The notes under the pieces are model-generated. The model ran no database searches and was not told the DNA's origin. It worked only from the letters and a program-made list of their open reading frames with translations. The translations under genes were made by a program, and so were the position numbers. Below are positions 8,081 to 30,680 of a stretch of 57,397 nt of DNA, piece after piece. The first letter of the stretch is position 1. The number at the start of each line of letters is the position of its first letter. The DNA comes from Acidimicrobiales bacterium. GTDB lineage: Bacteria > Actinomycetota > Acidimicrobiia > Acidimicrobiales > VFJN01. The stretch is taken from the NCBI GenBank assembly GCA_030681555.1, contig JAUXRW010000004.1:1-57397 (forward strand), in the 5' to 3' direction.

Positions 8081-10003
8081 TCAGGAGCCGACCGCGCCGC
8101 CGTCGTCCTTGGTGACGATGACCGTCGCCGAGCGGGGTGTCGTCAACCCGTCCTGCGGCGGCCACGTGCTGCCGCCGTTCTCGCCGGGGTGCTGGATGTT
8201 GGTGAACATCGTGCGCTGGTCGGGCGTGGTGACGACGCCCGTGCACTCGGAGCCGATGACCCCGGTGAGGAACCGGCGCAGCTCCGGGCGGCCTGCGGCG
8301 TGACGGGAACCGGGGTCGGCGGCGAGCATCTGGTTGTTGGCCCCTGACGGCTGGCGCCCGTCGGTCTGGATCCACACCCGGCCGTCCGGATCGGCCCAGA
8401 GGCCGTCGGGCGAACCGAACGCGTCCTCGGCGTCCACGCTCGAACCGTCCACGCCGGCGCCTGGCCCGGCGAGCACGAACAGGTCCCAGGTGAAGGAGGT
8501 GGCGGTGTGGTCGCCGCCGGCCTCCTCCCACCGGACGATGTGGCCCCACGGGTTCGGCTTGCGGGGGTTGGCGGCGTTGACGGTCTTGCCGCCGTCGGTG
8601 TTGTTCGTGAGCGTGAGGTACACGAGCCCGGTGACCGGGTCGACGGCGGTCCACTCGGGGCGGTCCATCGGCGTCGCCTTGACGGCGTTGGCCGCCAGAC
8701 GGGTCTTCACCAGGACGTCGCCCTGGTCGGCGAACCCGTTGGCGGCCTGCAGCGGCCCCTGCCCATGGACCAGCGGGAGCCAGATGCCGGTGCCGTCCTC
8801 GTCGAACCGGGCCACGTAGAGGGTGCCCTCGTCCAGCGGGCTGATGCCGCGGGCCCGCATCGAGGGCGCGTTGCCCGAGCTGACGAACTTGTAGACGTAC
8901 TCGTTGACCTGGTCGTCGCCGAGGTAGACCACCACGCGACCCCCGCGGCTCGTCTGGACGAAGGCCCCTTCGTGCTTGGTGCGCCCGAGGGCGGTCCGCT
9001 TCACGGGGGTGGACGTCGGGTCGAACGGATCGATCTCCACGACCCAGCCGAAGCGGTTCGGCTCGTTCGGGTCGCCCGGCGTGACGACGAAGCGCGGATC
9101 GTGCGTGGACCAGCTGTTGCGGTCTCCCCCCACGCCGTACTCCGCGTTGAGCGCCTGGTGCTCGGCGTCGTAGGCCCCGGGATCGACGCGGAAGTAGCCG
9201 TTGAAGTTCTCCTCGCACGTGAGGTAGGTGCCCCATGGCGTGTACCCGTGCGCACAGTTGTTGAAGGTGCCGAGGGGCGATCGCCCCTCCGGGTCGGCGC
9301 TCGTCCGCAGGAGACGGTGGCCCGCCGCGGGGCCAGACATCGTCATCGGCGTGTACGCGGTGATCCGCCGGTTGTAGCCGCCCCGGACCACCTCCCACTC
9401 GCCGCCGGCGGCCCGCCGGACCTCGACCACGGCGACGCCGTGGGCGTTCTGCGACTTGCGGACCATGTCGGCCGTGTACTGCGCACGGGTCGGCGCCGTG
9501 GTCGTCCCGGTGTGCAGGTAGCTCTCCTGCACAGCCTCGTGGTTCATCACCAGCAGCCCGTGCTCGCTGCCCCGCTGGCCCCGGGCGAGCGGGAAGTAGT
9601 GCATGCCGTCGTGGTCCGAGCCCATCTGCTGCGCCTGGTCCGCAGCGGTGTTGCCGCCGGGCACGAGCGGGGGCGTCCCGGGCACGTACGCCGGGTACGA
9701 CCCGAGGATGGGGGTGCCCCACGGCAGGAAGGGACGGGCCGTGTACCCCTCGGGGACCACCACCTCGTCGCCGAAGCCCGGCGGGATCGCGGCGAAGCCG
9801 AGCAGCCCCAACGAACCCTTCCCCCTCGCGGCCGAGCCGTCCCCCGCCACAGCGGAAGCCGAGGCCGAGCGACCGCCGACAAGGAACGCGGCGGCCGCAG
9901 CCAGGCCCCCGCCGAGCACCCGCCGCCGAGACACGCCCGCTGCCACATCGAGGAGGTGCGGCGCATCCACGTCGCTCGCTTCCATCAGGTCCTGTTCGAA
10001 CAT
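8081..10003 (-). CDS. phoX: PhoX-type alkaline phosphatase (DUF839), Tat-exported
   Basis: 640 residues from ATG 10003, with GGGAGG upstream. The N-terminus carries a Tat signal (SRRRVLGGG then an Ala-rich hydrophobic stretch, residues 26-50), as expected for the Ca/Fe-dependent PhoX family, which folds in the cytoplasm. Family hallmarks include HDGMHYFP, MNHEA, CEENFNGYF, RFGWVVEIDPFDP, RTKHEGA and SPDGLWADPDGRVWIQTDG. It would release inorganic phosphate from organic phosphomonoesters outside the membrane. A PhoB-like regulator gene lies directly upstream on the same strand, and a PHO-box-like triple repeat sits at 10080-10106. Confidence 0.9.
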   Translation of the reverse strand: MFEQDLMEASDVDAPHLLDVAAGVSRRRVLGGGLAAAAAFLVGGRSASASAVAGDGSAARGKGSLGLLGFAAIPPGFGDEVVVPEGYTARPFLPWGTPILGSYPAYVPGTPPLVPGGNTAADQAQQMGSDHDGMHYFPLARGQRGSEHGLLVMNHEAVQESYLHTGTTTAPTRAQYTADMVRKSQNAHGVAVVEVRRAAGGEWEVVRGGYNRRITAYTPMTMSGPAAGHRLLRTSADPEGRSPLGTFNNCAHGYTPWGTYLTCEENFNGYFRVDPGAYDAEHQALNAEYGVGGDRNSWSTHDPRFVVTPGDPNEPNRFGWVVEIDPFDPTSTPVKRTALGRTKHEGAFVQTSRGGRVVVYLGDDQVNEYVYKFVSSGNAPSMRARGISPLDEGTLYVARFDEDGTGIWLPLVHGQGPLQAANGFADQGDVLVKTRLAANAVKATPMDRPEWTAVDPVTGLVYLTLTNNTDGGKTVNAANPRKPNPWGHIVRWEEAGGDHTATSFTWDLFVLAGPGAGVDGSSVDAEDAFGSPDGLWADPDGRVWIQTDGRQPSGANNQMLAADPGSRHAAGRPELRRFLTGVIGSECTGVVTTPDQRTMFTNIQHPGENGGSTWPPQDGLTTPRSATVIVTKDDGGAVGS

Positions 10004-10079
10004 CGGGGCCTCCCAGCAGCGTCGGGCGGTCGATCCGCACGTCTGGTCCGGAAGGTACGAAGCCAACGTTGCCGCACTC

Positions 10080-10106
10080 CGAAGCGGAGGTGATCGGAGG
10101 CCGAAC
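10080..10106 (-). promoter_or_regulatory. Candidate PHO box upstream of phoX
   Basis: On the minus strand, GTTCG, GATCA and CTTCG cores recur exactly 11 nt apart (plus-strand CGAAC 10102, TGATC 10091, CGAAG 10080). This is the spacing of actinobacterial PhoP/PhoB direct repeats (consensus core GTTCA). It lies about 77-103 nt before the phoX start. Core conservation is imperfect; the same 11-nt phasing at the pst promoter supports it. Confidence 0.4.
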
Positions 10107-10145
10107 ACCTGCTTCCATCTCCGCGCGCTTGGCGACCCGACGGGG

Positions 10146-10952
10146 CTACGGGCCCGCTCCCGGGGCTGGGCCCGGCTCCGGGAGGAGGCGGAAGCCCACC
10201 CCGCGCACGGTCTCGATGCGGCGACGGCCCTCGACCGCCTCGAGCTTGCCCCGCACCTGCCGGACCACCGAGTCGAGCACCCGCTCCCGGACACCGGCCT
10301 CCCCGGCGGCGAGCTCCTCCCGGTGGACGACGCTCCCGGGCCGCCGGAGCAGGGCGAGGAGCACGGCGCACTCGTCCGGGGTCAGGCCCGTGCTGTGGTC
10401 GCCGATCGTGAGCGTGCAGGTCGCGATGTCGACGGAGATCGGGCCGAGGCCGGCGGCGGGCTCCTGGTCGGGACGGGGTCGGCCGGGCCACCGGCGGAGC
10501 AGCGCGCGGACGCGAGCGACGAGTTCCCGCTGCCCCACGGCCTGGGTGACCAGCTGGTCCGCTCCCGCTTCGTAGACGTCGAGCGCGACCGGGGCCCGGA
10601 ACGCCACCGGGGAGACGGCGAGGATCGGCGCAGCGCTGTGAGCGCGCAGCCGGGCGAGCACCTCGGCCGCAGGGCGGGCGGTGAGGCCCATGTCGACGAC
10701 GGCGATGTCGAAGGACACCGTCGGCTCCGTGGCGCCGGCCCCGCCCTCGGTCGACTGCTCGGGACCCCGGAGGTCGTCGACCAGCACGGCGTACCCCTCC
10801 GCGTGCAGCCAGGAGGCGATCTGGTCCTCCCACGCGGCGCTGTCGGTCACGAGGAGGACGGTGACCTGGCCGTCCCGCCAGCTCTTCCACTCGCCGCCCG
10901 ACCGCTCCTGCGGACGCACAGCGGGCGGGGAGTTGCGTAGGTCCGCCAGCAC
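10146..10952 (-). CDS. OmpR/PhoB-family response regulator with atypical receiver
   Basis: 268 residues. The receiver-like domain (about 30-150) keeps the phospho-acceptor region (FDIAVVDMGL) but has TDS where the acidic pair is usual. The conserved lysine of the VTKP motif is glutamine here (GADQLVTQAV). The C-terminal winged helix is typical (LTPDECAVLLALLRRPGSVVHREEL, LDSVVRQVRGKLE, IETVRGVGFRL). It is a DNA-binding regulator possibly independent of canonical phosphorylation. Its position before phoX and after the pst cluster suggests Pho control. The start is GTG with no clear ribosome site; no partner histidine kinase is in the window. Confidence 0.8.
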   Translation of the reverse strand: MLADLRNSPPAVRPQERSGGEWKSWRDGQVTVLLVTDSAAWEDQIASWLHAEGYAVLVDDLRGPEQSTEGGAGATEPTVSFDIAVVDMGLTARPAAEVLARLRAHSAAPILAVSPVAFRAPVALDVYEAGADQLVTQAVGQRELVARVRALLRRWPGRPRPDQEPAAGLGPISVDIATCTLTIGDHSTGLTPDECAVLLALLRRPGSVVHREELAAGEAGVRERVLDSVVRQVRGKLEAVEGRRRIETVRGVGFRLLPEPGPAPGAGP

Positions 10953-10975
10953 CGTCGGATCGTAGGAGTGAGGGG

Positions 10976-11002
10976 TGGCGGGGCTATGACGCCGCTGTGA
11001 AC
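10976..11002 (-). promoter_or_regulatory. Candidate PHO box upstream of the response regulator
   Basis: On the minus strand, GTTCA, CGTCA and CGCCA follow each other at 11-nt steps (plus-strand TGAAC 10998, TGACG 10987, TGGCG 10976), 24-50 nt before the GTG start. The first unit matches the GTTCA core perfectly; the others drift. It would imply autoregulation or Pho control of the regulator. Confidence 0.4.
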
Positions 11003-11024
11003 GTTCGGGACCCGCAGGCCAAAC

Positions 11025-13053: not shown

Positions 13054-14961
13054 TCAGGCGACCGTGAAGGTGAGCGTCCCCTCGTAGACGCCGTTCACCG
13101 CGGTCACCGGGATCAGGAGCTTGAGCCACGCATCGAACACCGCGATGCCGAGGCCGCTGTCCTGCGGGGCCGTGCCGAGCGCCCGACCCGCGGCGAGCCC
13201 GTTGGCCCCCGTGCTCCTCGGCTCGACGGGCGCACCGGCAGCAGCGGCCTGCGAGTAGTCCGGGGTGGCGGGGTCGAGGTCGTCGTCGAACGCCGGGGTG
13301 TCGCTCGTCAGGAACGGGTTCCAGCCGAGGTGGTTGCCGCTGAAGCTCGCTCCGGGCTTCGTGAAGGCCCCCATCGTGCCGTTGACGGTCCAGCCGTCGT
13401 CGGTGTCACGGGTGTCCACCACGGTCACCTGGTTGAGCCGGCCGCTGGCGGCGAAGAACTGACCGGCGCCGGCGCCCGAGGTGATGAGCTTGCCCTTGCC
13501 GAGGTCGATGCCGCAGTGCGTCGGGTAGGTGGCGCTGGGCACCCCGTCGGCGTCGGTCGGGTACGGGTACTGGGCGAAGCCGCCGTCGGGGTTCGACCCC
13601 TCGGTCGGCGACGCCAGGCCCTCGTCCCAGCTCTGCATGGGCGCCGTGCCCGGACCGGCCGCAGCCACCGCGGGCAGCGAACCCGACGGGAAGCCCGGGG
13701 ACGTGGTGCCGGTTCCGGCCGGCAGGGCGCCGAACGCCCCGCAGACCTGCGTCAGCACCAGGTTGCCCACGGGGCGGGTGACCTCGAGGTGCTGCTGGAT
13801 GGTCTGTGCGCTGTTCGGCGTGACCGGACCCACCTGGGCGGGGGTGCCGGCGGGCGCCGTGGCGTACAGCGGCGTGACCGTGACGGTGTACAGCGTGCCG
13901 GCCGTGAGGCCGGTGATCTGCGCCGAGGTGTTCGCCTCGTCCACGATCGTCGTGCCCTCTGCCGGGTCCACCGTCACGGCATACCCGGTCACGGAGGGGC
14001 CGGCGTAGCTCCAGTCGACGTCGATCGAACCGACGCCCGGCGTGGCCGTGAGGCCGGTGACCGCGGGACGGCTCGGGTTCGGCGTACCGGTGAGCGCGTT
14101 CGACTCCGGTCCGCTGCCGACGCTGTTGGTGGCCCGCACCGTCACGCTGTACTCCGTGCCGTTCGTGAGGCCCGGCACCGTGATGGGCGAGCTGCCGCCC
14201 GTCGCCGTGACGGGAGCACCGGCGGGCGGCGTGGCGGTGACGGTGAAGCCGGTCGTGGCCGGCGTCGAGGCGCCGGCCGTGAAGGCCACCGCGAGGGAGC
14301 CGTCGCCGGGCGTCACCGCGGTGAGGGTGGGAGCAGCCGGCACCGCGCCGACGCTCCAGCTCACGTTGGCGAACCCGTCGCCGCCGTTGGTGGAGAACGT
14401 CTTGGTGACGTTCCAGTACTCCTTCATCTGGTCCGGACCCGCCGGGCCCAAGGTGCACGCGATGCCGAGGTTGTACGCACCCGCCGGGATGTCACCGGGG
14501 ACGAACACCGCGCCGTAGTTGAAGTCCGGGATGTTGATGATCGGGCCCGGACCGGGCGGGCTGGTGGCGTTGGCCGTCTGCGCGTCGACGTAGCCGGACC
14601 CGTTGCTGTCGTAGAGCGGCTGGCGGAATCCGGCCCCGAGGGTGTTCGGGATCGGCCCGGCCGCGTTGAAGGTCAACGTGCTCGGGTCGACGCTGGCGGG
14701 CACCATGTAGCTCTGCACCCGGTAGTCGTCGTTGGCGCTGTCACCACCGCACGAGGCGCCGTTGGGGAGCCGCAGCGTAAACGTGCTGGCACTGGTGCCG
14801 GAGTCGAGGGCGGCCGCGCCGCCCGGGGTGCGCACGCTGGCGCCCCCGGGCTGCGGGACACCGGCGGCGCCGGCGGCGGGGGCGGAGAGGAGTGGCACGA
14901 CGGCCGCGGCGACCGCCGTGGCCAGCAGCCCCGACCACACCTTCTTCGAGCTTCGCTTCAT
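13054..14961 (-). CDS. Secreted protein: DYRVQSYMVP domain plus two fibronectin III-like modules
   Basis: 635 residues. Signal peptide at 1-32 (ATAVAAAVVPLLSAPAAGAA). Residues about 55-195 form the domain shared with three other proteins here (GASCGGDSANDDYRVQSYMV, GFRQPLY, GPGPIINIPDF, PGDIPAGAYNLGIACTLGP). Two fibronectin III-like modules follow (about 205-295 and 298-385, with TNGTEYSVTVRATN and TAGTLYTVTVTPLY). The C-terminal 240 residues end EGTLTFTVA, like WxL/DUF916-associated surface proteins. No LPXTG motif or C-terminal helix is seen, so it is likely released or wall-associated. The start has AAGGA at eight bases. Its gene follows the second pstS-like gene by 68 bp. Confidence 0.75.
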   Translation of the reverse strand: MKRSSKKVWSGLLATAVAAAVVPLLSAPAAGAAGVPQPGGASVRTPGGAAALDSGTSASTFTLRLPNGASCGGDSANDDYRVQSYMVPASVDPSTLTFNAAGPIPNTLGAGFRQPLYDSNGSGYVDAQTANATSPPGPGPIINIPDFNYGAVFVPGDIPAGAYNLGIACTLGPAGPDQMKEYWNVTKTFSTNGGDGFANVSWSVGAVPAAPTLTAVTPGDGSLAVAFTAGASTPATTGFTVTATPPAGAPVTATGGSSPITVPGLTNGTEYSVTVRATNSVGSGPESNALTGTPNPSRPAVTGLTATPGVGSIDVDWSYAGPSVTGYAVTVDPAEGTTIVDEANTSAQITGLTAGTLYTVTVTPLYATAPAGTPAQVGPVTPNSAQTIQQHLEVTRPVGNLVLTQVCGAFGALPAGTGTTSPGFPSGSLPAVAAAGPGTAPMQSWDEGLASPTEGSNPDGGFAQYPYPTDADGVPSATYPTHCGIDLGKGKLITSGAGAGQFFAASGRLNQVTVVDTRDTDDGWTVNGTMGAFTKPGASFSGNHLGWNPFLTSDTPAFDDDLDPATPDYSQAAAAGAPVEPRSTGANGLAAGRALGTAPQDSGLGIAVFDAWLKLLIPVTAVNGVYEGTLTFTVA

Positions 14962-15029: not shown

Positions 15030-16229
15030 TCACAGCGTCCCCGTGACCAGCGGGCCGGTGAGCGTGGTGCTGCCGCAGTCGGCGCCGAGGCTCAGGAATC
15101 CGAAGGTCTGGATGGTCGACGTCGAGGTGCACACGCCGGACGTCGACCCGACGAAGAGCGTCTTGATGTCGTTGTTGCCCGGGTTGTCCAGGAGGCCCTT
15201 GGAGAGGACGTTGTAGACGTCCCGGCCGTAGGTGGTGCTGGCGTAGAAGCCGCTGCTCGGGGAGAGCGACGGTGCGGTCCCCGTGTGGGGCAGGCCGAGG
15301 GCGTCGATGGCGCCGAGCTTCACCACGCCACCCGCAGGCAGCTGGCTGGCGACGACACCGTTGCTCTGGGAGATGAAGTTGGCCGCGGAGAAGCCGATGA
15401 TCACCTGCTTGCCGGCGAACGCCGGCAGATCACCGCGGGCCTTGAGGGCGCTGGCGTCGTTCTCCTGGGACCGCCCCGACAGGTTCGGGTTGAGGCCTGC
15501 ATCGAGCGCTGCGCTGTTGCAGACCTGCGTCCCGGTCGCCTCCTGGTCCGCCGTGTTGCCGGTGGCCGTGTTCCAGAACTGGTAGGTGCCGGAACCCAGC
15601 TGGATGCCGCAGGGCACGATCTCGACGCCGTCGATGGTGGCCGGACCGTTGCGGAAGAGCGACGTGAGCTGCGCGCTGGTGAGGGTGGTCACCGGGGCGA
15701 CCCCGTTGGCGTAGTAGCCGAAGCTGAGCGCGTCACGCCCGAACGGGATGTAGGTGAGGGCGGTACCGCTGCCGCTCGGACCCGCCGACGACCGGGCGTA
15801 CTGCACCAGGCCAGAGATGACCTTGAGGCCACCGCCACAGTTAGCGGCGTCGTAGCCCGAGCCGTCGATCGACCGGCTCAGGGCGCGTCGGCCGCCGGTG
15901 GACCCGTTGGGCCGCGTGAACGTGGCGCCAGGCGCCTTGGGGGTGATGCAGGCAGAGCCCGTGGCATCCCACGAGGTGAGCTGCCGACGACCGGAGGCGG
16001 CGGAGCTCTGCGCAGGCGTGTAGCTGGAGGTGTTGGTGAAGCCGGCGAGGGCGTTCATGACGTCCTGCGTGGTGTCCGAGCCGACACCGGTGGCAGCGTT
16101 GAACTGCTTCGGATCGGCGGTAGCGGGATTTCCGGTCGCGACGAGCGCGCCGATGCCCACGGCCGCGATGGTCAACGCGGCGGCGACCTTCGACCGCTTG
16201 GTCCTGGAGAGACTGATCAACCTGTGCAA
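15030..16229 (-). CDS. PstS-like periplasmic phosphate-binding protein
   Basis: 399 residues, secreted. The best start is TTG at 16229, seven bases after AAAGGGG. The signal peptide is about 10-36 (KVAAALTIAAVGIGALVATGNPATA). The mature part has PBP-like_2 features: GVGSDTTQDVMNALAG at the N-terminus, SRSIDGSGYDA, YIPFGRDALSFGYYANG, LTSAQLTSLFRNG, and a late GRDVYNVLSKGLL. No C-terminal anchor is present, unlike the first PstS. It lies 179 bp after pstB. The phosphate ligand is inferred from family and context. Confidence 0.75.
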   Translation of the reverse strand: MHRLISLSRTKRSKVAAALTIAAVGIGALVATGNPATADPKQFNAATGVGSDTTQDVMNALAGFTNTSSYTPAQSSAASGRRQLTSWDATGSACITPKAPGATFTRPNGSTGGRRALSRSIDGSGYDAANCGGGLKVISGLVQYARSSAGPSGSGTALTYIPFGRDALSFGYYANGVAPVTTLTSAQLTSLFRNGPATIDGVEIVPCGIQLGSGTYQFWNTATGNTADQEATGTQVCNSAALDAGLNPNLSGRSQENDASALKARGDLPAFAGKQVIIGFSAANFISQSNGVVASQLPAGGVVKLGAIDALGLPHTGTAPSLSPSSGFYASTTYGRDVYNVLSKGLLDNPGNNDIKTLFVGSTSGVCTSTSTIQTFGFLSLGADCGSTTLTGPLVTGTL

Positions 16230-17920: not shown

Positions 17921-17937
17921 CGGCAGGCTCCTGAGGG

Positions 17938-21453: not shown

Positions 21454-22211
21454 CGGTCCTCCAGGGACGGGCGGGGGGTGGGTTGCGAGCGGGAGTCGGC
21501 ACGGGGTCGGCGAGTGCGCTGGACGAGCACGGCCAAAGCGACGGCGCCGGCACCGGCACCGGCAAGGAGCGCGCTCGTGCTGAGCCCCGTGCTCGACGTG
21601 GGGCCCTCCACGTCGAGCACCCGCCACCGCACCTGGGCAGGCTCGTCTGTCGCGGTCTCGCTCACGACCAGCCCGGTGTCCCAGACGGTGACGACCTCGT
21701 TCAGGAGCGTGCACGCGATGCCGATGTGGTAGCGGCCGGGCGGGAGGTCCCCGGGTTGGTACACCCCGAAGCTGAAGGCGGGCAGGTTGATGATCGGGCC
21801 CGGTTCGTCGGGCGCTTCCGCGTCCGCTGTCTGAGCACTGACGAAGGAGTTCGTGTTCGTGTCGAAGAGGGGTTCGCGGAAGGTCTCGTAGGTCCCGAAG
21901 GAAGCCGGCGCGGGGCCGAGGCCGTCGTAGGTGATCGTCGCCGGGTCGACCGACGCCGGCACCATGTAGCTGTTGACGCGGTAGCCGTCGTCCGGGCTGT
22001 CGCCAGGGCACTCGGGCCTTCCCGGGATGTCCACCTCGAACGGCGTGCTGCTCCCGCCCTCGGTCGGGCTGACCTGGAGACGACCGCCGTTGCGCGCTTC
22101 CTGCGCCCCGGCCGGAGACCCCCCCAGGGTGAGAGCGGCGGCCAGGGCAGCGGCGACGACGGACGCGCCTGCGCAGCGGCGACCTGGTGATCTGGGGACG
22201 GCGAACGTCAC
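21450..22211 (-). CDS. Secreted membrane-anchored protein with divergent DYRVQSYMVP domain
   Basis: 253 residues. Signal peptide about 10-37 (ASVVAAALAAALTLGGSPAGAQ), shared domain about 50-200 (PECPGDSPDDGYRVNSYMVP, FREPLFD, GPIINLPAFSFGVYQPGD, GRYHIGIACTLL). A C-terminal helix (LSTSALLAGAGAGAVALAVL) and an Arg-rich tail follow. It lacks the Thr stalk and LPXTG and is the most diverged of the four copies. Its GTG start overlaps the stop of the giant PstS-like gene (GTGA). Confidence 0.75.
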   Translation of the reverse strand: MTFAVPRSPGRRCAGASVVAAALAAALTLGGSPAGAQEARNGGRLQVSPTEGGSSTPFEVDIPGRPECPGDSPDDGYRVNSYMVPASVDPATITYDGLGPAPASFGTYETFREPLFDTNTNSFVSAQTADAEAPDEPGPIINLPAFSFGVYQPGDLPPGRYHIGIACTLLNEVVTVWDTGLVVSETATDEPAQVRWRVLDVEGPTSSTGLSTSALLAGAGAGAVALAVLVQRTRRPRADSRSQPTPRPSLEDR

Positions 22212-24892
22212 GCGGGCACCCCTCTGTCCGTGCTGCTGCCAGGGATCGCCCGGCGCGGGCGCTTCGTGATCTCGACGGTGCCCAGACCGGACAGCAGTGC
22301 GATGGCGGCGAGGACCGGGAGGACGAAGCGGTTGCCCGCCAGCGCGACGATCGGGGTCACGAGCTTGGCCAACGTGGAGGGCGCGGGCGGCTCGACGACG
22401 GGCGAGGAGCTCACCGGCGTGAAGGCCGTCGCGCCGCCGGGCGCGACGAACCCTCCGGCGGACGAGGAGAAGGACTCGTCCGCCGGGAAGGCGGTGTCGA
22501 ACGAGGTCGGTGAGCCGTCGGGCGCCGTCCCGCCGGGCCCGTCGGCAGGAGGCGGAGTGGCCGTCAGCTCGCGCACCTGACGGGCTGCCGCGGCCGCCTG
22601 TGCCCGGAGGACTGCGGGCAGTGGGGTGTAGCCGGGCGGCAGCTGACCCAGCTCCCGCCCGGCCACCTGGCCGGGTCCGGCGGCGTGGTCGAGGAAGGCG
22701 GCGTAGTCCGTGCGGGCGGCGGCGTCCTGCGTGAGCGGGGCGATGGCGGCGTAGGCGAGCACGCTGAGGGGGTACGCACCGGGGGCCGGCGCGGTGGCCA
22801 CCGGCTCGAGCACCGAGGTCCCCTCGCGCACGGTCATGGCCGCTACGCCGGCCGTGAGGCCGGGCTCGTCGGGGGCCACGAAGGTGCGGGCGTCGCCGTC
22901 GTCGCCGGCCCGGCTGAGGCGAGCCGTCTGCACCCCGTACTGCACGGCGGACGCAGAATCGGTCACGGACAGCATCGTGCGGTTGCCCAGCAGCTGTGGC
23001 CCGCCGACGCGGTAGACCTTGTCCGCCGTGAGGGCGAAGGTGTCGAGGCTCGTCCTCGACCCGTCGTCTGCGGCTCGGGTGAGTCGAGCGGAATCGCGAA
23101 GACTCTGCGTGTACGGGAGCCAGTCGGTGCCGCACAGCGGGGGCGGCTTGACCACGCCACCGGGCCCCTGCGGCGGCGCCTCGTAGCAGTAGGGGTCGCT
23201 CTTGGGGAACTGCTCGGGCACCGGATCACCGAAGGCCGAGCCCGTGCTGTTGCTCGCCGCGACGGTTGCGTAGGCAGGGTTCACCTGCATGCCCCACTCG
23301 TCGGCCTTCCCGTCCAGCCATGCCTTCGCCTCCGGGTCGGCGAAGATCCACTCCCATACCTGGACAGCGACGTCCGAGCTGCGCGAGGGCATCACCAGGC
23401 CACCGAAGTTCTTGCCGCCGTTCTCCAGCAGCTCGAACTCGGGATTGAAGCGGAGGAAGTCCGGATCGAGCCCGAGGTGCGGAGGGTTCTCGACGACCCA
23501 GTCGTACGGGGGGGACGAGGAGCCGACCGCCGTCTGCTGCCGGTAGGACTGCGTCAGGAGCTTGGCGACGAGCCGGGGCGTGAGGTTGAGCTCGGCCACG
23601 CGAACGCCGCGCAGGAGCTCCGATTCCGGGCCGGCGTCCGGTCGGGGACTGCGCTCGACGTTGAAGCCGATGACCGTGGCCGAGAGCGTGATCGGCGCGT
23701 AGACGATGGGGTTGTCGGGCGTGACCGTCGACGGGTCGATGGCGCGGGACACCACGACCATCCCCGGTCCGCCGGGCACCCCGCTCTGGAGCTGCTGGCG
23801 CGCGTTGGAGTCGCCAACGGTCCCGTAGGCGTACGGCGGCAGACCGGGCGTCGAGCACAGCTTCTGCTGCCAGCTGGTGACGGCGGGCACGGGGAGCTCG
23901 TTGCCGGAGATGCGGCGTTGCTCGGCCGCGAGGTCGCAGCTGCTGTCGATGGGCGTGAAGTCGAGCGGCACGGCGATGCGGTGCTGCCAGGCCGCCGGCG
24001 ACAGCGGAGACGTGAACACCCCCGACGCGCCGGCCACCGGCGTGCCCTCGTTCTCTGCGGCAGGATCGCCGCGCGGCACGATCACGAGCCAGCAGCGGGG
24101 GGCCTTCGGCGCCGCGCCCGCCACGGGCTGCACCTTCATGCCGCAGCCCAGCCCGGTCGACTCCAGCCCCGTGGTGACCTCGAACAGCTCGGCGCCCTTC
24201 CCGTCCCGGCCCGTCCGACCACCCGGGATCTCGTTGGTCGTGATCGAGTTGAAGTACGGGTTGAGCCAGTAGTTCCCGCCGACGATCGACGGGTTGAAGG
24301 CAGGGTCGTAGTGGGCGTTCACGACAGTGCCGTCGACCGCGCGGAACGGCTTCCACAGGTAGCCAGTGGTGTCCTCGGCGAACCCGTCGGCCTCGTCGAA
24401 GCTCGGGTAGCCCTCCCGCGAGATCACCCGTTCGAGCGCGAGTCCGCCGCCAGGAAAGAGGCTCCCGCTCCGACCCCCGTACACCGCGTCGCTGGCCCCT
24501 TGCACACACTGCTCGGGGGGCGGGCCGGGGTTCGTCGGGTTGGTGCCGTCGTCGTCGCCCCAGCACTGCATGAGCTGCAGGTAGTGGCCGCTGAACGGGG
24601 AGGGCGATCGCAGGGTGGGGACGCCTCCCGCCCAGGTGACGGAGACCGCCTGGTTGACCAGGTCCTGGGTCTGGTTGACGGTCACTCGCAAGGCAGCGAA
24701 GGGACCCGACCCGCTCACCGTCACCTGCGACTCGGTCGGCGGCAGCGACGTGTCGACTCCCGCGCTGCCGGCGGTGGGCTCCGCCGCCGTGCCAGGGGCG
24801 GCGAGCGACGCGGCCCCCGCCACCGCCAGGAGGACCAGCGCGACGGGTCGGACCCGTGACCGGCGACGGTCGACACGAAGGCGGGGCCGCAT
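22208..24892 (-). CDS. Giant PstS-like substrate-binding protein with C-terminal membrane anchor
   Basis: 894 residues. Signal peptide about 17-37, long extracellular region, Pro/Thr-rich stretch about 790-850, C-terminal helix (FVLPVLAAIALLSGLGTVEI) and basic tail. PBP-like elements resemble PstS: VYAPITLSATVIGFNVERSP, ELNLTPRLVAKLLTQSY, EFELLENGG, and AYPLSVLAYAAIAPL near the end, matching YPLSSYSYF of PstS. The first 250 residues contain cysteine pairs (MQCWGDDD, PEQCVQ) and a Trp/Tyr-rich segment without clear family. TGATG links it to pstS. A surface receptor feeding Pst is a reasonable inference. Confidence 0.7.
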   Translation of the reverse strand: MRPRLRVDRRRSRVRPVALVLLAVAGAASLAAPGTAAEPTAGSAGVDTSLPPTESQVTVSGSGPFAALRVTVNQTQDLVNQAVSVTWAGGVPTLRSPSPFSGHYLQLMQCWGDDDGTNPTNPGPPPEQCVQGASDAVYGGRSGSLFPGGGLALERVISREGYPSFDEADGFAEDTTGYLWKPFRAVDGTVVNAHYDPAFNPSIVGGNYWLNPYFNSITTNEIPGGRTGRDGKGAELFEVTTGLESTGLGCGMKVQPVAGAAPKAPRCWLVIVPRGDPAAENEGTPVAGASGVFTSPLSPAAWQHRIAVPLDFTPIDSSCDLAAEQRRISGNELPVPAVTSWQQKLCSTPGLPPYAYGTVGDSNARQQLQSGVPGGPGMVVVSRAIDPSTVTPDNPIVYAPITLSATVIGFNVERSPRPDAGPESELLRGVRVAELNLTPRLVAKLLTQSYRQQTAVGSSSPPYDWVVENPPHLGLDPDFLRFNPEFELLENGGKNFGGLVMPSRSSDVAVQVWEWIFADPEAKAWLDGKADEWGMQVNPAYATVAASNSTGSAFGDPVPEQFPKSDPYCYEAPPQGPGGVVKPPPLCGTDWLPYTQSLRDSARLTRAADDGSRTSLDTFALTADKVYRVGGPQLLGNRTMLSVTDSASAVQYGVQTARLSRAGDDGDARTFVAPDEPGLTAGVAAMTVREGTSVLEPVATAPAPGAYPLSVLAYAAIAPLTQDAAARTDYAAFLDHAAGPGQVAGRELGQLPPGYTPLPAVLRAQAAAAARQVRELTATPPPADGPGGTAPDGSPTSFDTAFPADESFSSSAGGFVAPGGATAFTPVSSSPVVEPPAPSTLAKLVTPIVALAGNRFVLPVLAAIALLSGLGTVEITKRPRRAIPGSSTDRGVPA

Positions 24893-26574
24893 CAGGGCGC
24901 CTCGTCCTTCGACAGGAAGCGCCACACCGCGGCCGGGACGAGCACCAGGGCCAGCATCAGCACGATGATGAGCACCATCAACGTCTGCGTCGTCGACCAG
25001 CCGGACGACCCGGACAGGAGTGTGGTCGTCACCGGGCCCTCCGCGAGCGCTCCGGTGCCGCCCCCGTCGCCGGCAGCGAGGGAGTCGAGGCACACGCCCG
25101 TCTCGGGATCGCAGGCCGCGGTCCCTCCGAGGCCGCCGTCCGTGACCGCACCGCCGTCAGCTGCGCCCGTCGCACCGCCGGAGGTCGATCCTCCCGTGGC
25201 CCCCCCGGCACCGCCGCCGGCGGCACCGCCGCCGGTCGCCCCGCCACCGCCCCCGCCGCCGGTGCCCCCGCCGCCGCTCGCAGCGGTCGAGACCGTCTTC
25301 ACGCCCCCCGTGCCGGTGGCGCACTGCGCAGGACCCTTCTTGTCGCACTCCGGCGGCACCGGTGCGTTCTTGGCGAGCAGGTTGGTGCCATCGGAGGAGA
25401 AGGTCGGGTTCTTGCAGCTGTTGATGTTGATGTCCTGCACGACCACGCCGGGGATCTTCCGGATCTGGTCGAAGCTGGCCGTCACGAGGTTGATCGGCAG
25501 CGGCGAGTAGCCGAGCGACGCGGACTGCTGCTGGGCCTGGCACATCGCGTAGTAGGCGAAGGCGCCGAGGGTCTTTCCCTTCGCCTCGTTGAACTGCCCC
25601 CCGACCTTCGTCGGCAGGATGAAGTAGGAGTACGACGACAGGGGGTAGTTCCGGCTGTCCGGGTCGCGGTAGACGTCGTCGAGCTCCTGGGTCAGGTAGC
25701 TGTCGGAGCTCTCGTCGTTGTTGATCTTGGCCTTGAGGAGCGAGACTGCGACGTTCTCGGGCGTCGGTTCCGTGTAGTACCCCGCTGCGTTCAGCACCTT
25801 CGCGACCGGGAAGCGGGCGCCGAGCGCATACGAGTAGTTCACGTAGCCGATGGCGCCTTCGGCGAAGCTCTGCGCGACGTAGCCGGCCACGCCGAGGTCC
25901 CCGGACTGCGCGATCATCCCGCCGACGGTCGGGTAGAAGGACGTGAACCCACAGGCGGGGGCGCGGCCGGACCGCTCACAGAACGAGTTCCAGATGCTGG
26001 GGTGTTGGGAGATCATCCACTCCGTGAACTGCGCGCTCGAGCCCGATCCGTCCGAGCGGACCACCGGGACGACCTTGCGGCTCGGCAGGGCCAGCCCGGG
26101 GTTGTCGGCCTTCAGGGCCGGGTCGTCCCAGCTCGTGATGGCGCCGGTGAAGAGCTTGGCGACGTTCTCCCCGGACAGCCGCAGGTTCGTGACCCGCTGG
26201 CCGTTGATCTTCAGGTTGTACATCAACGACGTGCCGCCGGCGGTCACGGGGATGTAGGCGTAGCTCCCGCGTGCGGGATTCTCTGGGGCGGACCCGTCCT
26301 CGGGTCGGAACTGGAACGGGATGTCCGAGGCCGCGAAGTCGACCGTGCCGTTGAGGAAGTTCTTCCGGCCGGCACTCGACCCGCTCGGGTTGTAGTCGAC
26401 CGTGATGCCGAACTGCTTGACGTTGACACGCATGGCATCGATCGCACCGGCGGACCACGACGATCCCTCCCCGGAGATGCGCTGGTAGGTCTCACGCGCC
26501 TCGGCGGGTGAGCCGAGGACGGCGAGCACGGCACCCAGCACGAGGAGGACGGCGACGAGTCGGACTCGGGCCAT
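24892..26574 (-). CDS. pstS: PstS phosphate-binding protein, C-terminally membrane-anchored
   Basis: 560 residues. Signal peptide 1-27 (no lipobox), then the PstS fold with phosphate-contact segments: GEGSSWSAGAIDAM, YNPSGSSAGRKNFLNGTVDF, SDIPF, RSDGSGSSAQFTEWM, GAIGYVNYSYAL. After residue about 400 there is a Cys-containing region, a Gly-rich linker (about 450-500) and a C-terminal helix (TLMVLIIVLMLALVLVPAAVW). It is thus tethered by its tail, not by a lipid as in mycobacterial PstS. TGATG overlaps couple it to pstA upstream and to the giant PstS-like gene downstream. Confidence 0.9.
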   Translation of the reverse strand: MARVRLVAVLLVLGAVLAVLGSPAEARETYQRISGEGSSWSAGAIDAMRVNVKQFGITVDYNPSGSSAGRKNFLNGTVDFAASDIPFQFRPEDGSAPENPARGSYAYIPVTAGGTSLMYNLKINGQRVTNLRLSGENVAKLFTGAITSWDDPALKADNPGLALPSRKVVPVVRSDGSGSSAQFTEWMISQHPSIWNSFCERSGRAPACGFTSFYPTVGGMIAQSGDLGVAGYVAQSFAEGAIGYVNYSYALGARFPVAKVLNAAGYYTEPTPENVAVSLLKAKINNDESSDSYLTQELDDVYRDPDSRNYPLSSYSYFILPTKVGGQFNEAKGKTLGAFAYYAMCQAQQQSASLGYSPLPINLVTASFDQIRKIPGVVVQDININSCKNPTFSSDGTNLLAKNAPVPPECDKKGPAQCATGTGGVKTVSTAASGGGGTGGGGGGGATGGGAAGGGAGGATGGSTSGGATGAADGGAVTDGGLGGTAACDPETGVCLDSLAAGDGGGTGALAEGPVTTTLLSGSSGWSTTQTLMVLIIVLMLALVLVPAAVWRFLSKDEAP

Positions 26575-27782
26575 CAGGTCGCTCCCAGCTGCTTCGCGTC
26601 GAACCGCTCGACGTCCTTCGCCGACCGCACGGCCAGGCGCTGGGCCTGACGACCGCTCACTCGTCCGGCGGGGCGCCCGCCGAGGATGCGTGCGACGACG
26701 AATAGGACGAGGACGAGGAGCATGAGCACCGCCGCGGTGGCGAACCCACGGGCGACCAGCGCCGGCTGGGGCGACCGCACGAACTCGAACGTCGCCAGCG
26801 GGAGGGACACCATCGGACCCTCCAACGGGTTCGCGTTGAGCGTCGAGGTGAACCCCGCCGTGAGGAGCACCGGCGCGGTCTCCCCGAGGCCCCGGGCCAC
26901 ACCGAGGATGACCGCGGTGGCCAGCCCGGACCGGGCCGTGGGCAGGACGACGTGACGGACCGTGCGCCACTGCGGCGCGCCGAGCGCCGCCGACGCCTCG
27001 CGGAGGTTGCCCGGCACCAGTCGGAGGACCACATCGGCCGACCTGATGATGATCGGCAGCATCATGATGCTGACGGCGATCGAGGCGGCCAGGCCGGACC
27101 GCTCGAAGCCAAGCACGAGGATCCAGGTGGCGAAGATGAACAGCCCCGCGAGGATCGACGGGAGGGCGGTCATCGCGTCGACGATCGAGCGCACGATCCC
27201 CGCGGCCCGGCTGCGGGTCTCGTTCAGGAACACCGCGCAGGCCAGCCCGAGCGGCACGGTCAGGACCAGGGCCAGCGAGATCATGATGAGCGTCCCGAGG
27301 ATGGCGTGCGAGATCCCGCCCTTCGACAGCGGGTCGGCCGGGCCCGCTGCGCTCATGTCGTCGTGGTAGAGGTTGACGTTCCCGAGCGCCTCCCGTCCCC
27401 GCCACAGCGTGAACGCGATGACCGACACGAGCGCCACCAGCGACAGCACCGTCGCCGATGCCAGGAGCACGGCCATGACCTTGTCGACGACGGCGGGGCG
27501 CTCGTCCTCCATCCACGTGAGGAGCGCGTAGATGGCGACGAACAGCACGTAGGTGACGATGACGAAGCCGACGGCGCCGGAGATCGGCGCCAAGCGGCCG
27601 AACAGGAGCAGTCCGGTGCAGAGCGCGCTGAGGAGCGCGCCGCACAGGTTGAGCAGGTCCTGACGCTGCACGCCCCCGATGGCGCGGCGGACCTGGCCCC
27701 CGGCCGGAGCTCCGTGCTCGCGCGGCAACACCGTGCGCTCGGACGGGCGAGCGGCCTCCGGGGCGGACAGGAGGGTCGTCAT
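26574..27782 (-). CDS. pstA: PstA phosphate ABC-transporter permease
   Basis: 402 residues, about 100 longer than classical PstA. The core permease (about 150-370) has the BPD-transporter motif EASAALGAPQWRTVRHVVLP and the typical LGVARGLGETAPVLLTAG. The extra N-terminus adds hydrophobic helices (LLNLCGALLSALCTGLLLFG, VGFVIVTYVLFVAIYALLTW, VMAVLLASATVLSLVALVSV). Between core helices is an extracellular loop with NLYHDDMSAAGPADPL. ATGA overlaps pstC, TGATG overlaps pstS. Confidence 0.9.
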   Translation of the reverse strand: MTTLLSAPEAARPSERTVLPREHGAPAGGQVRRAIGGVQRQDLLNLCGALLSALCTGLLLFGRLAPISGAVGFVIVTYVLFVAIYALLTWMEDERPAVVDKVMAVLLASATVLSLVALVSVIAFTLWRGREALGNVNLYHDDMSAAGPADPLSKGGISHAILGTLIMISLALVLTVPLGLACAVFLNETRSRAAGIVRSIVDAMTALPSILAGLFIFATWILVLGFERSGLAASIAVSIMMLPIIIRSADVVLRLVPGNLREASAALGAPQWRTVRHVVLPTARSGLATAVILGVARGLGETAPVLLTAGFTSTLNANPLEGPMVSLPLATFEFVRSPQPALVARGFATAAVLMLLVLVLFVVARILGGRPAGRVSGRQAQRLAVRSAKDVERFDAKQLGAT

Positions 27783-28801
27783 GCTTCGCTGCTCGCGCCG
27801 GACCGCGAGCGGGCGACGAAGGCCGACGCGGTGAAGTTGACGACGAGGGTGAGGGCGAAGAGGGCGAGCCCGGCCGCCATCAGGGCAGACAGGCCGAAGC
27901 CGGAGGCCTCGCTGTAGCGCAGGGCGATGAGGCTGGAGACCGAGTTGCTGCCGGCCTCGAGGATGTGGAAGTTGATGTCGAAGCGCGGGGAGATGATCAG
28001 GAGGACGGCGATCGTCTCCCCGAGCGCCCGGCCGAGCCCCAGCATCGTCCCGCCGATGATCCCGCCCCGGGCGAACGGGAGCGAGACGATCCGGATCATC
28101 CCCCACCGCGTCGCCCCGAGGGCGAACGCACCTTCGCGCTCGCCGGTGGGCACCTGCGAGAACACCTCCCGCATGATTGAGCACTGGATGGGCATCACCA
28201 TGAGGGCGACCACGACGCCAGCGATGAACGTGGAGGCCGTGAAGACGGTCTCGCTCGAGAGCGGATCGGTCGGGTCCGCGCCGCTCACCTCGAAGAGCGG
28301 GATCCACGAGAACCAGGTGGCCAGCCACCGGGAGACGCCGAGGATCTGTCCCTGGAACAGGTACGCGCCCCACAGGCCGTAGACGACGCTCGGGACAGCG
28401 GCCATGAGGTCGACCAGGCCGACGAGCGTCGACCGGAAGCGCTCGGGCGCGACCTCGGCGATGAAGAGCGCTGAGCCGAGCGACACGGGGAGGGCGATGC
28501 TCACGGCGACCAGCGCGATGGCGATCGTGCCGGTCAGGACCGCGGCGACACCGAACTCGCCTCGGTCCGGCTGCCACTCCGCGGTGGTGAGGAACGAGGC
28601 ACCGGTGGTCCGCAGCGCCTGGGCCGCCTCGAAGGACAGGAACAGCCCGACGGCAGCCATGATGGCCAGCACCAGCAATCCGGTCGCCAGCGAGCCGCGG
28701 GTGAAGATGCGGTCGCCGAGCTCCGGCTGCACGGCGATCGCCCGCGGGACGGGCGCGGGTCCGGACGGCGGGCCCGGGAGGGTAGTCATCGTCGTGGCCA
28801 T
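27779..28801 (-). CDS. pstC: PstC phosphate ABC-transporter permease
   Basis: 340 residues, six predicted helices. PstC features: GVAAVLTGTIAIALVAVSIALP, VDLMAAVPSVVYGLWG, coupling motif GAFALGATRWGMIRIVSLPF, LGLGRALGETIAVLLIIS. The N-terminal 30 residues are Pro-rich and cytoplasmic. It follows the 262-aa tail-anchored gene by 2 bp and overlaps pstA (ATGA), so all are one transcription unit led by the PHO box at 30648-30680. Confidence 0.9.
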   Translation of the reverse strand: MATTMTTLPGPPSGPAPVPRAIAVQPELGDRIFTRGSLATGLLVLAIMAAVGLFLSFEAAQALRTTGASFLTTAEWQPDRGEFGVAAVLTGTIAIALVAVSIALPVSLGSALFIAEVAPERFRSTLVGLVDLMAAVPSVVYGLWGAYLFQGQILGVSRWLATWFSWIPLFEVSGADPTDPLSSETVFTASTFIAGVVVALMVMPIQCSIMREVFSQVPTGEREGAFALGATRWGMIRIVSLPFARGGIIGGTMLGLGRALGETIAVLLIISPRFDINFHILEAGSNSVSSLIALRYSEASGFGLSALMAAGLALFALTLVVNFTASAFVARSRSGASSEA

Positions 28802-28803
28802 GG

Positions 28804-29592
28804 TCAGCCCACCCAGGCGAGGAGCACGACGAGGAGCACCAGGACGGCGATCATGGGCAGCACCACGTCGACGTAGAGGAGCTTGTTCCACGTCGGCCTA
28901 GATCGGGGGCGAGCAGCCACGGCGTCGGCGGGGGGCGCAGCGGGCGGCACCACCGTGAACGGGCCGGCCGGAGCAGCGGCCGGCCACCCGGCGCCGGGCG
29001 CGACTCCCGGCGCTACCGGGAGCACGAAGACGAACGTGTCGCCGGCGCGCTGCGGTGCCTCCTCGGCGGACGTCTGCGCAGGCGACGTGGCCGGCAGTGC
29101 AGCGGGGGGCGCGGCGATGGTCGGGGCCGGGAAGCGGGGGAACGGCGGTCGCTCAGGGGCGACCTCCGGCGGCGGCTCGACCTCAACGCGGAGGCTCGAC
29201 GGCGGCTCGGTGGCCGGGCGCTGGTGGAGAGCCCGGAGCGCCTGCTCGCTCGCCGCCGCCGCCACGGCGGCGGCGTGGGCGCGCGCCGCCGTCATTAGCC
29301 GGATCGCGTCGTTGCGCACCTGCTCGAGCTCGTCGGACAGCTCGGCGCGTCGGGCGTCGACCCGGAGGGCCGGATGGAGCGCCCCCAGCTCGTCGGGCTC
29401 GGAGGCGGCACCGGCGCGGCTGAGCGCAGGCGGCGGCGTGGGGGCGTGCGCAGCGGCACGCAACTGCAGCGCCACCCGGGCTGCCCCGGCCCGCGCCGAG
29501 CGGAGGGCGTCGTCCAGCTCCGGGGCCGCCGGGCGCGGCGGCTCGAGGTCGTCCGCCGGACGGGGTTCGTCCCCGACGGTGTCGGCCAACAC
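28804..29592 (-). CDS. Tail-anchored coiled-coil protein I (Pst operon)
   Basis: 262 residues from GTG 29592, the first start after the preceding gene's stop. The N-terminal two-thirds are alpha-helical and Ala/Arg/Glu-rich (ELDDALRSARAGAARVALQL, ELSDELEQVRNDAIRLMTAA), a likely coiled coil. A Pro-rich linker with many PPA and PAAP runs follows. The C-terminus is a single helix (VVLPMIAVLVLLVVLLAWVG) ending at the stop, so the protein is anchored by its tail and faces the cytoplasm. It shares the terminal LL.W.G ending with its neighbour. The family is unknown to me. Confidence 0.6.
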   Translation of the reverse strand: MLADTVGDEPRPADDLEPPRPAAPELDDALRSARAGAARVALQLRAAAHAPTPPPALSRAGAASEPDELGALHPALRVDARRAELSDELEQVRNDAIRLMTAARAHAAAVAAAASEQALRALHQRPATEPPSSLRVEVEPPPEVAPERPPFPRFPAPTIAAPPAALPATSPAQTSAEEAPQRAGDTFVFVLPVAPGVAPGAGWPAAAPAGPFTVVPPAAPPADAVAARPRSRPTWNKLLYVDVVLPMIAVLVLLVVLLAWVG

Positions 29593-29596
29593 GACC

Positions 29597-30193
29597 TCAG
29601 CCGATCCAGAGGAGCAGGAGAACGAGCACGGCGACGGCGACGAGGACGGGGACGAGCCGGCCCCGCGCCTCGGCCAGCTGCTGGCCCCGCAGGGCAGATG
29701 CAGCCTGCTCCAGCTGCCAGAAGTCGACGAACCGCGCCGCGTCCTCGCGCTCACGCGCGTCGCCCGCGCCCGCACCGGCCATCGCCGCCGGATCGACGGG
29801 GGGCGGCGGCGTGACGACGGGGGCGGCGCCGGCGAGGTGGGCGGCGACGTGCTCCTGGGCATCGACGACCAGCCATGCCGCGTAGGCGCGCGCGTCGGCC
29901 AGCCGGGCGGCCGCCCTCGCGCTGGCCGCGTCGACCTCCATGCGGAAGTAGCCGTCCCCGCTGCGGGCCAGCTCCTCGACCGACGCCTGCAGCTGGCCGA
30001 TGCGGTCGCTGCCGCCGTCCGGGCCGGTGTGGAGGGCGAGGAGCTTCTCCTCGGCCGCGTCCGCCTCTCGTTCGGCCGTCTCGACCTGTTCGAAGAGGTG
30101 GTCGAGCCCGTCGCGGACGGCGTCGAGGAGATCGTCGACGGCCGCCGCCGGCACCGTGTCGGCCAGGTCGACCTGCGGGATGGCGGCGGTCAT
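29597..30193 (-). CDS. Tail-anchored coiled-coil protein II (Pst operon)
   Basis: 198 residues. Helical N-terminus (AAVDDLLDAVRDGLDHLFEQ, VETAEREADAAEEKLLALH), a basic Ala-rich helix (DAASARAAARLADARAYAAW), a short PPPP linker and a C-terminal helix (LVPVLVAVAVLVLLLLWIG) running to the stop. The layout parallels the 262-aa neighbour. ATGA joins it to the DivIVA-like gene upstream; a 4-nt gap separates it from the next. The family is unknown; a membrane-bound scaffold near the transporter is inferred from position only. Confidence 0.6.
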   Translation of the reverse strand: MTAAIPQVDLADTVPAAAVDDLLDAVRDGLDHLFEQVETAEREADAAEEKLLALHTGPDGGSDRIGQLQASVEELARSGDGYFRMEVDAASARAAARLADARAYAAWLVVDAQEHVAAHLAGAAPVVTPPPPVDPAAMAGAGAGDAREREDAARFVDFWQLEQAASALRGQQLAEARGRLVPVLVAVAVLVLLLLWIG

Positions 30194-30627
30194 CCGACGA
30201 GCCGGGCGTCGAACCAGGTCTCCTCGACCGGACGGTCGTCCCGGATCGGGGCGACGGGTTCGTAGGAGGCGTCGGAGGAGAGGGTCGCGACGATCTCGGC
30301 GGCCCACGCCCGGGCGGCCGCGAGGATCCCCTCGCACTCGGCGTCGGCCGCGGCCAGGATCACGGCCACCGTGCGCTCCGTGGTGTCGCGCTCGGACTCG
30401 AGGTCGCGGGTGGCGGACCGCAGCGCCATGGCCATGCGGTGGCTTTGCTCGGCCGCTGCGGTCAGCGCCTCCTCCGCCCGGCGGCGGCGGTCGTGGGCCG
30501 CCGCCAACGCCGCCTCGAGCTGCGCGCGATGGACCTCGGCCTGCTCGAGGAACTGGTGGACCCCGGCGCGGTCGTAGAACTTGATCCCGTCCGCGTCGGG
30601 CTCCGGGGCGGAGTCCTGGGGGAACAT
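30190..30627 (-). CDS. DivIVA-like coiled-coil protein heading the pst operon
   Basis: 145 residues, soluble, mostly alpha-helical. The segment IKFYDRAGVHQFLEQAEVHR at 15-34 resembles the N-terminal motif of DivIVA-like proteins, followed by a long coiled coil (about 30-115) and an acidic tail ending FDARLVG. It begins 21 nt after the last PHO-box unit and has no Shine-Dalgarno, so a very short or leaderless transcript is possible. ATGA couples it to the next gene. Membership of DivIVA proper is uncertain. Confidence 0.55.
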   Translation of the reverse strand: MFPQDSAPEPDADGIKFYDRAGVHQFLEQAEVHRAQLEAALAAAHDRRRRAEEALTAAAEQSHRMAMALRSATRDLESERDTTERTVAVILAAADAECEGILAAARAWAAEIVATLSSDASYEPVAPIRDDRPVEETWFDARLVG

Positions 30628-30647
30628 GTCGGCATCGTCGCAGCACG

Positions 30648-30680
30648 AGGTGACAGCGCCCTGAACGGCCCTTGAACGGC
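30648..30680 (-). promoter_or_regulatory. PHO box: three 11-bp direct repeats before the pst operon
   Basis: Reading the minus strand, three consecutive 11-mers occur: GCCGTTCAAGG, GCCGTTCAGGG and CGCTGTCACCT. They share the GTTCA/TGTCA core at exact 11-nt spacing, as in actinobacterial PhoP (PhoB) boxes. They end 20 nt before the first gene of the operon, where they would overlap the -35 region. This is the best evidence that the whole downstream cluster is induced by phosphate limitation. Confidence 0.7.

Follow-up and report, generated by a model that had tools for sequence, protein, structure and literature searches.

Gene content of the locus

The stretch studied here, called the window below, is a whole contig (C130 in our handles; JAUXRW010000004.1) of 57,397 bases with 72% G+C, from an Acidimicrobiales genome of 3.28 Mb in 162 contigs. 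It carries a cluster of 18 genes in which the components of a Pst phosphate importer lie among genes for a sortase-like protein, PstS-like receptors and other secreted proteins (Table 1). As described in an earlier reading made from the sequence alone (hereafter the sequence-only reading), the genes run one way from position 30627 to 8081; reading frames and translations placed every one of them on the minus strand, with eight overlaps of 1-4 nucleotides (nt), at CC1/CC2, pstC/pstA, pstA/pstS, pstS/large receptor, large receptor/surfA, surfA/surfB, surfC/sortase and WxLIP/partner. Gaps of 64, 17, 179, 68, 113, 72 and 142 nt lie elsewhere in this run. Start codons were picked by inspection, guided by ribosome-binding sites and gene overlaps, and those of CC3 and the regulator are uncertain.

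Pst is the textbook phosphate importer. The PstC and PstA proteins of the cluster exceeded the NCBIfam equivalog cut-offs for the phosphate type, and PstS and PstB, the latter being the fused PstB of the sequence-only reading, each scored just under theirs. The Walker A, signature and Walker B motifs are present in this PstB (by eye). Its first 245 residues gave no match in a Pfam search, and this N-terminal extension could be aligned in 8 of the 12 surface-type loci having such a pstB.

The order pstC-pstA-pstS ... pstB without phoU differs from the textbook order pstSCAB-phoU. The absence of phoU noted by the sequence-only reading thus holds for the cluster but not for the genome, because contig C108 carries ppk, pstS, pstC, pstA, pstB, phoU, phoR and phoB in textbook order (pstS, pstC, phoR and phoB being names assigned by reading translations), and this separate operon accounts for the phoU missing from the cluster. 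The C108 PstS begins with a lipobox-like sequence, while the cluster PstS and its relatives have a long linker and then a hydrophobic helix at the C-terminus. The PhoB-like regulator beside phoR on C108 is fuller than the regulator of the cluster. We also noted, on contig C110 of this genome, two more frames with paired PhoU domains. Taken together, the cluster appears from its gene content to be a second, complete Pst importer beside an ordinary one. In the related genome G161 a textbook-type pstS, pstC, pstA and pstB set follows the cluster, and in G240 the pstC, pstA and pstB of such a set were detected after it.

Table 1. Features of the cluster and its PHO-box-like sites in the window.
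Feature	Positions	Strand	Basis
PHO-box-like triple repeat, 11-nt period, about 20-50 nt upstream of CC1	30650..30677	-	score 14/18, tied second in window
CC1, helical DivIVA-like protein	30190..30627	-	DivIVA 17.6 bits, under cut-off 28
CC2, hydrophobic helix at C-terminus	29597..30193	-	reading frame and sequence
CC3, C-terminal hydrophobic helix, adjoins pstC, start uncertain	28804..29592	-	C-terminal motif recurs in relatives
pstC	27779..28801	-	TIGR02138 240.6 bits, cut-off 196.45
pstA	26574..27782	-	TIGR00974 210.7 bits, cut-off 193.45
pstS, long linker and C-terminal hydrophobic anchor, no lipobox seen	24892..26574	-	TIGR00975 186.7 bits, cut-off 205
Large PstS-like receptor, 894 amino acids, C-terminal hydrophobic anchor	22208..24892	-	profile comparison with PstS
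surfA, shared surface domain, C-terminal hydrophobic helix	21450..22211	-	sequence comparison
surfB, shared surface domain, LPLTG sorting signal	20470..21453	-	sequence comparison
surfC, shared surface domain, Thr/Ser-rich linker, LPATG sorting signal	18852..20405	-	sequence comparison
Pseudo-sortase, class E-like, catalytic His to Arg, Cys to Ala	17938..18855	-	Pfam Sortase PF04203 51.3 bits, cut-off 26.6
pstB with 245-residue N-terminal extension	16409..17920	-	TIGR00972 340.6 bits, just under cut-off 343.2
PBP2, second PstS-like secreted protein	15030..16229	-	profile A12 against PDB phosphate-binding-type chains
surfD, shared surface domain and fn3 repeats, no anchor seen	13054..14961	-	sequence comparison
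WxLIP (DUF916) protein, C-terminal hydrophobic helix	11924..12940	-	PF06030 37.6 bits, cut-off 27.3
WxLIP partner, C-terminal hydrophobic helix	11025..11927	-	no Pfam match; resembles WxLIP protein in C-terminal part only
Second PHO-box-like site, upstream of regulator gene	10975..11002	-	score 13/18; weak alone
OmpR/PhoB-type regulator, weak receiver domain, start uncertain	10146..10952	-	Trans_reg_C 48.9 bits; Response_reg 23.6, cut-off 30.2
PhoX alkaline phosphatase	8081..10003	-	PF05787 528.3 bits

Recurrence of the cluster in relatives

The locus was compared with its relatives in a census of 43 contig groups from 40 genomes, found via the surface domain, the large receptor or the sortase (G356, described below, was left out). 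This comparison showed a linkage of a limited set of genes: the large receptor was present in 42 groups, pstC and pstA in 39 each, the sortase in 38, pstS in 36, pstB in 34 and PBP2 in 31. The other members were found less widely (surface domain 14, WxLIP 11, partner 9, CC3 6, regulator 3, PhoX 1), and many of the contigs are short. Four groups lack pstC, namely the short contigs L020 (5.8 kb), G220 (6.2 kb) and G015c (2.7 kb) and G123, where the receptor frame starts 540 bases from the contig end; the five without a sortase (L019, L020, G015a, G015b and G231) likewise stop at contig ends. One candidate Pst-less case, G328 (L116), was rejected when pstC, pstA, pstB and pstS were found just beyond the first stretch. 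By these counts, the constant core is Pst, the large PstS-like receptor and the sortase-like protein, usually with PBP2, and the surface domain is optional; the regulator and PhoX are local additions.

The order pstC-pstA-pstS-large receptor-surface genes-sortase-pstB-PBP2-surfD-WxLIP-partner recurred nearly unchanged, although it is rearranged in G330. Because gene order recurs in many genomes, we take the 18-gene arrangement to be beyond chance. Of 15 loci inspected, 9 have a C-terminal hydrophobic motif of the CC3 type (roughly DVxL...VVLxAW) in the protein encoded immediately before pstC, and a cut-off copy of CC3 was matched in L017.

Profile searches gave the reach of the individual parts. 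The surface-domain profile matched 10 of 395 genomes of the class Acidimicrobiia, with 2-4 matches apiece, and in nine of these ten the domain was found with pst (spread over three contigs in G376). The sequence-only reading, which had tied the surface genes to pst and had named relatives with the two apart as the case that would refute it, was thus upheld as far as linkage across lineages and these nine genomes go, but G356 speaks against it, and it is the dead sortase and the receptor, not the surface domain, that stay constant. The large-receptor profile matched 31 of the 395 class genomes, some weakly; G079, where the match is an ordinary PstS, and G099 and G374 (about 20 bits) were left out. 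With a wider receptor profile 103 of 396 phylum genomes matched, the weak matches being taken to be largely ordinary PstS. Nine genomes exceeded 280 bits, and the four of these that lie outside the class all carry pst with an adjacent sortase-like protein; the follow-up of the wide profile covered these four and G003. A plasmid search with the L155 receptor gave no match. Named carriers within the class include an Ilumatobacteraceae bacterium and, from the Microthrixaceae, Ca. Microthrix parvicella (genus Neomicrothrix).

These counts also bear on whether the cluster is a pump at all, rather than a sensor of phosphate or of the wall. The genome already has a textbook Pst, and dead enzymes often signal, which would suit a sensor. 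Yet 39 of the 43 groups retain the permease genes and 34 the ATPase gene, while a linked regulator occurs in just three, and we regard a sensor as quite improbable.

Pseudo-sortase, receptors and surface proteins

The product of the gene next to pstB matches the Pfam Sortase family, and hydrophobic stretches flank its sortase domain on both sides (by eye). Class E was the best-scoring subfamily model for the linked sortases, the window copy reaching 63.9 bits against a model cut-off of 160. Class E sortases work with a His, a Cys and an Arg, which in SrtE1 are His251, Cys320 and Arg329 (PMC5148588). When linked and unlinked sortases were compared in one alignment, the catalytic His and Cys were both gone in 38 of 38 Pst-linked copies and both kept in 14 of 14 unlinked, sampled ones, so that the pseudo-sortase proposed by the sequence-only reading is a property of the whole linked group. 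At the His position the linked copies have Arg (37) or Lys (1), and at the Cys position Ala (17), Ser (15), Met (2), Gly (2), Val (1) or Thr (1). The unlinked set consisted of 11 next-best matches from ten other genomes and this one (L190-L200) plus three further sortases from this genome, and no pst was found within the fetched surroundings of L190-L200 (11 to 19 kb). As a separate observation, in 9 of these 11 the active sortase adjoins or overlaps an ATP-binding cassette (ABC) ATPase frame, to which the PstB model gives just 41-60 bits.

The Ser found at the Cys position in 15 of the 38 copies might suggest that the sortase-like proteins are still enzymes using another nucleophile. We consider this extremely improbable, as the window copy has Ala there and the His is missing from every linked copy. 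A profile built from the dead copies found some sortase in 309 of 395 class genomes, and its 26 matches of at least 230 bits, from 25 genomes, were all dead copies of the census. Sampled active sortases scored up to 212 bits and the dead copies of G123, G096, G106 and G328 scored 218, 203, 168 and 143, respectively; because scores mix in this way below 230 bits, the score alone cannot part the two kinds. In a tree, by contrast, one branch parted 28 of the 38 dead copies from 12 active rows with support 100/99, was present in 100% of 200 bootstrap trees and required a single change. Given the consistent loss in 38 copies and this single supported branch, we therefore take the gene to be not one decaying copy but an old pseudoenzyme kept with the phosphate pump.

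The receptors beside it differ in how they treat the ligand site. In the cluster PstS, comparison showed the phosphate-contact positions to be kept in 13 of 13 rows; in the E. coli numbering, which we take to be that of the contacts, these are T10 (Ser/Thr), S38, D56, R135, S139, G140 and T141 (Ser). The giant PstS-like receptor of the sequence-only reading was recovered as such, its family profile (A8) aligning with the PstS profile (A6) at hhalign 99.6% and E 1.1e-23 over 327 columns. Across 14 rows of this family the key Asp and the Ser-Gly-Ser/Thr loop were both unaligned (by eye, uncertain by 1-2 residues), and an Asp or Glu lies inside the loop in 13 of them, the remaining row, L109, having an Asp one place on. 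The large receptor is thus predicted to be a PstS relative with a rewritten ligand site. PBP2 appears to be a weaker relative, which agrees with its earlier description as a second PstS-like protein: a profile from 10 rows gave nothing clear, and the relation emerged with the 16-row profile A12 (best PDB match E 5.5e-10; hhalign to A6 83.7%). It retains the Ser-Gly loop and has Ser where the key Asp aligns.

Both the large receptor and PBP2 are related to PstS but altered at ligand positions, so that another phosphorylated or anionic compound could be the substrate, captured by these two with the surface proteins as a trap. We hold this to be improbable: the phosphate-contact positions of the cluster PstS are kept in every row compared, and PstC and PstA lie over phosphate-specific equivalog cut-offs.

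The four secreted proteins surfA-surfD were said to share one domain, and indeed a domain of 164-180 residues is common to them, with 44-47% identity to the first copy. No Pfam family matched more than three of its 25 members. Its model, with a predicted local distance difference test (pLDDT) score of 93.1, has a confident beta-rich fold, for which Foldseek returned nothing at E <= 0.001. The best VIA-align hit was a histone chaperone (Z 6.2, 3.8 A over 120 residues), a likeness that we read as a common arrangement only, and the surface-domain profile had a single match among solved chains, at E 0.7. The domain is accordingly predicted from its model to be a new beta-sandwich domain without a clear relative. 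In 11 of 14 surface-domain groups a surface protein has an LPxTG or LAxTG signal and a hydrophobic tail; an active sortase could process these proteins, or a dead one hold them.

Of the DUF916 pair, one protein matches PF06030, the first domain of WxLIP proteins (PGBD, DUF916), as proposed; the other, its partner, is without a Pfam match and alike in the C-terminal part only. The second domain of WxLIP proteins (HBD, DUF3324) gave no Pfam match at E <= 0.1, and a comparison of the surface domain with the WxLIP partner found no relation. The WxL domain PF13731 was without a match in the whole genome, the L. lactis control genome being positive, and none of the 25 surface-domain members matched WxL at E <= 1. 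Membership in the WxL gene clusters, which call for two or more WxL-domain proteins, was rejected, the genome being without any WxL domain. The regulator can be called PhoB-like only in part, for its winged helix scores well but its receiver domain falls below the cut-off; the assignment of PhoX stood.

Phosphate control, proposed mechanism and known systems

Candidate PHO boxes were scored as three GTTCAY units (the hexamer that we take to be that of the PHO box) at an 11-nt period, with a maximum of 18. In Streptomyces, PHO boxes are 11-nt direct repeats (PMC7866108). The textbook pst operon on C108 has a perfect repeat pair upstream of pstS, and in the window two sites precede genes of the cluster (Table 1). 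For relatives, the highest-scoring site within the 3 kb that precede pstC was set against every other stretch of its locus. Pooled over 24 loci, which represent 24 of the 43 groups, the enrichment reached 1.4e-17 by Fisher's method and 4.3e-22 by mid-p, with p <= 0.1 in 13 loci, and these values are optimistic because distant pstC starts were set by eye, null windows overlapped and some loci are related. Periods of 8, 9, 10, 12 and 14 gave p >= 0.25, those of 7 and 13 gave 0.004 and 0.02, and none of 150 permuted letter orders was as extreme as the motif at 3 kb. The same enrichment was seen in 13 previously unused stretches drawn from the remaining groups, with starts taken from the profile match (7.8e-7 at 3 kb and 7.4e-7 at 600 bases; other periods 7e-4 to 0.18). 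The Pho regulation claimed by the sequence-only reading is in this way well supported for the cluster family, as far as motif comparison goes, and plausible for the window copy.

The best triple repeat of the window (16/18), at 3784-3811 (+), closely precedes a gene of the histidine-phosphatase family (3829-4341) and hints at a wider local Pho regulon; another site, at 7590-7617 (+), precedes a NUDIX gene. That such sites also stand before genes outside the cluster, as well as before the regulator gene, would suit an explanation by shared Pho control only, in which starvation leads the cell to produce a second Pst and, as an independent response, to remodel wall or coat, with no physical complex. 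The surface domain, undetected in 29 of the 43 groups, points the same way. Nevertheless, the sortase-like protein and the large receptor stay with pst in the class and in the four genomes inspected outside it, and the sortase gene adjoins pstB in surface-type loci; we consider shared control alone rather unlikely.

Other neighbours were noted in passing. Just past PhoX lie the gene of a CHAD-domain protein (5555-7300, -), such domains being polyphosphate binders, and that of the NUDIX protein (7622-8056, +). An adenylate cyclase-AAA-LuxR type regulator of 1149 amino acids (33465-36914, -) lies on the promoter side of the cluster, and an ISL3-family transposase gene (1858-3033, -) is near the contig end.

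The explanation that we favour, and judge reasonably probable, is that the cluster encodes a phosphate-starvation-induced, envelope-built second Pst importer in which the dead sortase serves for structure or docking. Low phosphate would activate a PhoB-type regulator, which would switch on the cluster. PstC, PstA and PstB would form the pump, and PstS, on its flexible linker and membrane helix, would catch phosphate and hand it to PstCAB, with the large receptor and usually also PBP2 as fixed companions. The membrane-fixed pseudo-sortase might keep the receptors with a tail anchor close to the pump, and perhaps LPxTG proteins as well, while leaving them uncleaved. Some lineages, this one included, have surface-domain proteins and a WxLIP-like protein that may extend the array into the wall or across it, and PhoX would here release phosphate from esters. 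We infer the formation of a complex, the docking role and the benefit for phosphate capture from these arrangements. More tentatively, and with rather less confidence, we suggest that a wall-spanning phosphate-harvesting complex exists across Actinomycetota, made up of PstCAB, a PstS with a tail anchor, the pseudo-sortase and a PstS-like co-receptor that has no phosphate site.

Several observations weigh against the starvation-induced, envelope-built importer. A docking role for the sortase-like protein is guesswork based on its losses. Gaps of up to 179 nt allow several transcripts in the 18-gene run. The site upstream of CC1 is imperfect (4/18 mismatches) and reaches p = 0.06 alone; among the relatives, 11 of 24 loci have p > 0.1 and no clear site. 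High scores also came from letter orders that overlap the motif (about 5e-17 for GTTYAC and CGTTYA; 1.5e-11 for TTCAGY), and at 600 bases the motif, with 8.8e-11, was beaten by 2 of 150 draws, both GTTYAC. The AlphaFold model of the large receptor, from a 7-row alignment, had a pLDDT of only 32.7. Finally, the surface-domain gene of G356 is split over two contig ends, and neither contig (20,140 and 10,264 bases) carries pst or the large receptor.

If the proposal is true, Pst is not always a four-part machine and the sortase fold gains a non-catalytic role, the first such job for this fold to our knowledge, within what would, as far as we know, be a new ABC importer architecture. It would also suggest a route by which bacteria with thick walls get scarce phosphate across them. 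The nearest genus to this genome among named records is Ca. Microthrix, which stores polyphosphate and whose genomes are reported (PMC8267870) to be without the low-affinity Pit transporter; a second Pst may therefore matter there.

Compared with the Pst importer (PstSCAB), the cluster has in common PstC, PstA, PstB, a PstS with its phosphate positions, and PHO-box-like control. It differs in having no phoU, a tail-anchored PstS, extra PstS-like receptors and a dead sortase adjacent to them, in a PstB that is extended in part of the loci, and in its added surface proteins. Like SrtE1, the Streptomyces coelicolor class E sortase (PMC5148588), the linked copies have the sortase domain, with class E as their best model, but all 38 are without His and Cys, and a supported branch parts dead from active copies. 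The WxL gene clusters (PMC10599100) are alike in placing a WxLIP (DUF916) protein with a C-terminal hydrophobic helix beside secreted proteins that share one domain; here, however, the genome has no WxL domain, no DUF3324 match was seen and the genes are joined to Pst. Several Pst systems in one actinobacterium are also known from mycobacteria, and the review describing them (PMC7866108) does not mention a sortase. Among the open-access matches listed, judged by title and the start of the abstract, there was neither a Pst locus with a sortase nor a natural dead sortase. Pst, class E sortases and WxLIP are thus already known, and what appears to be new is their combination, above all the standing pseudo-sortase in an importer locus.

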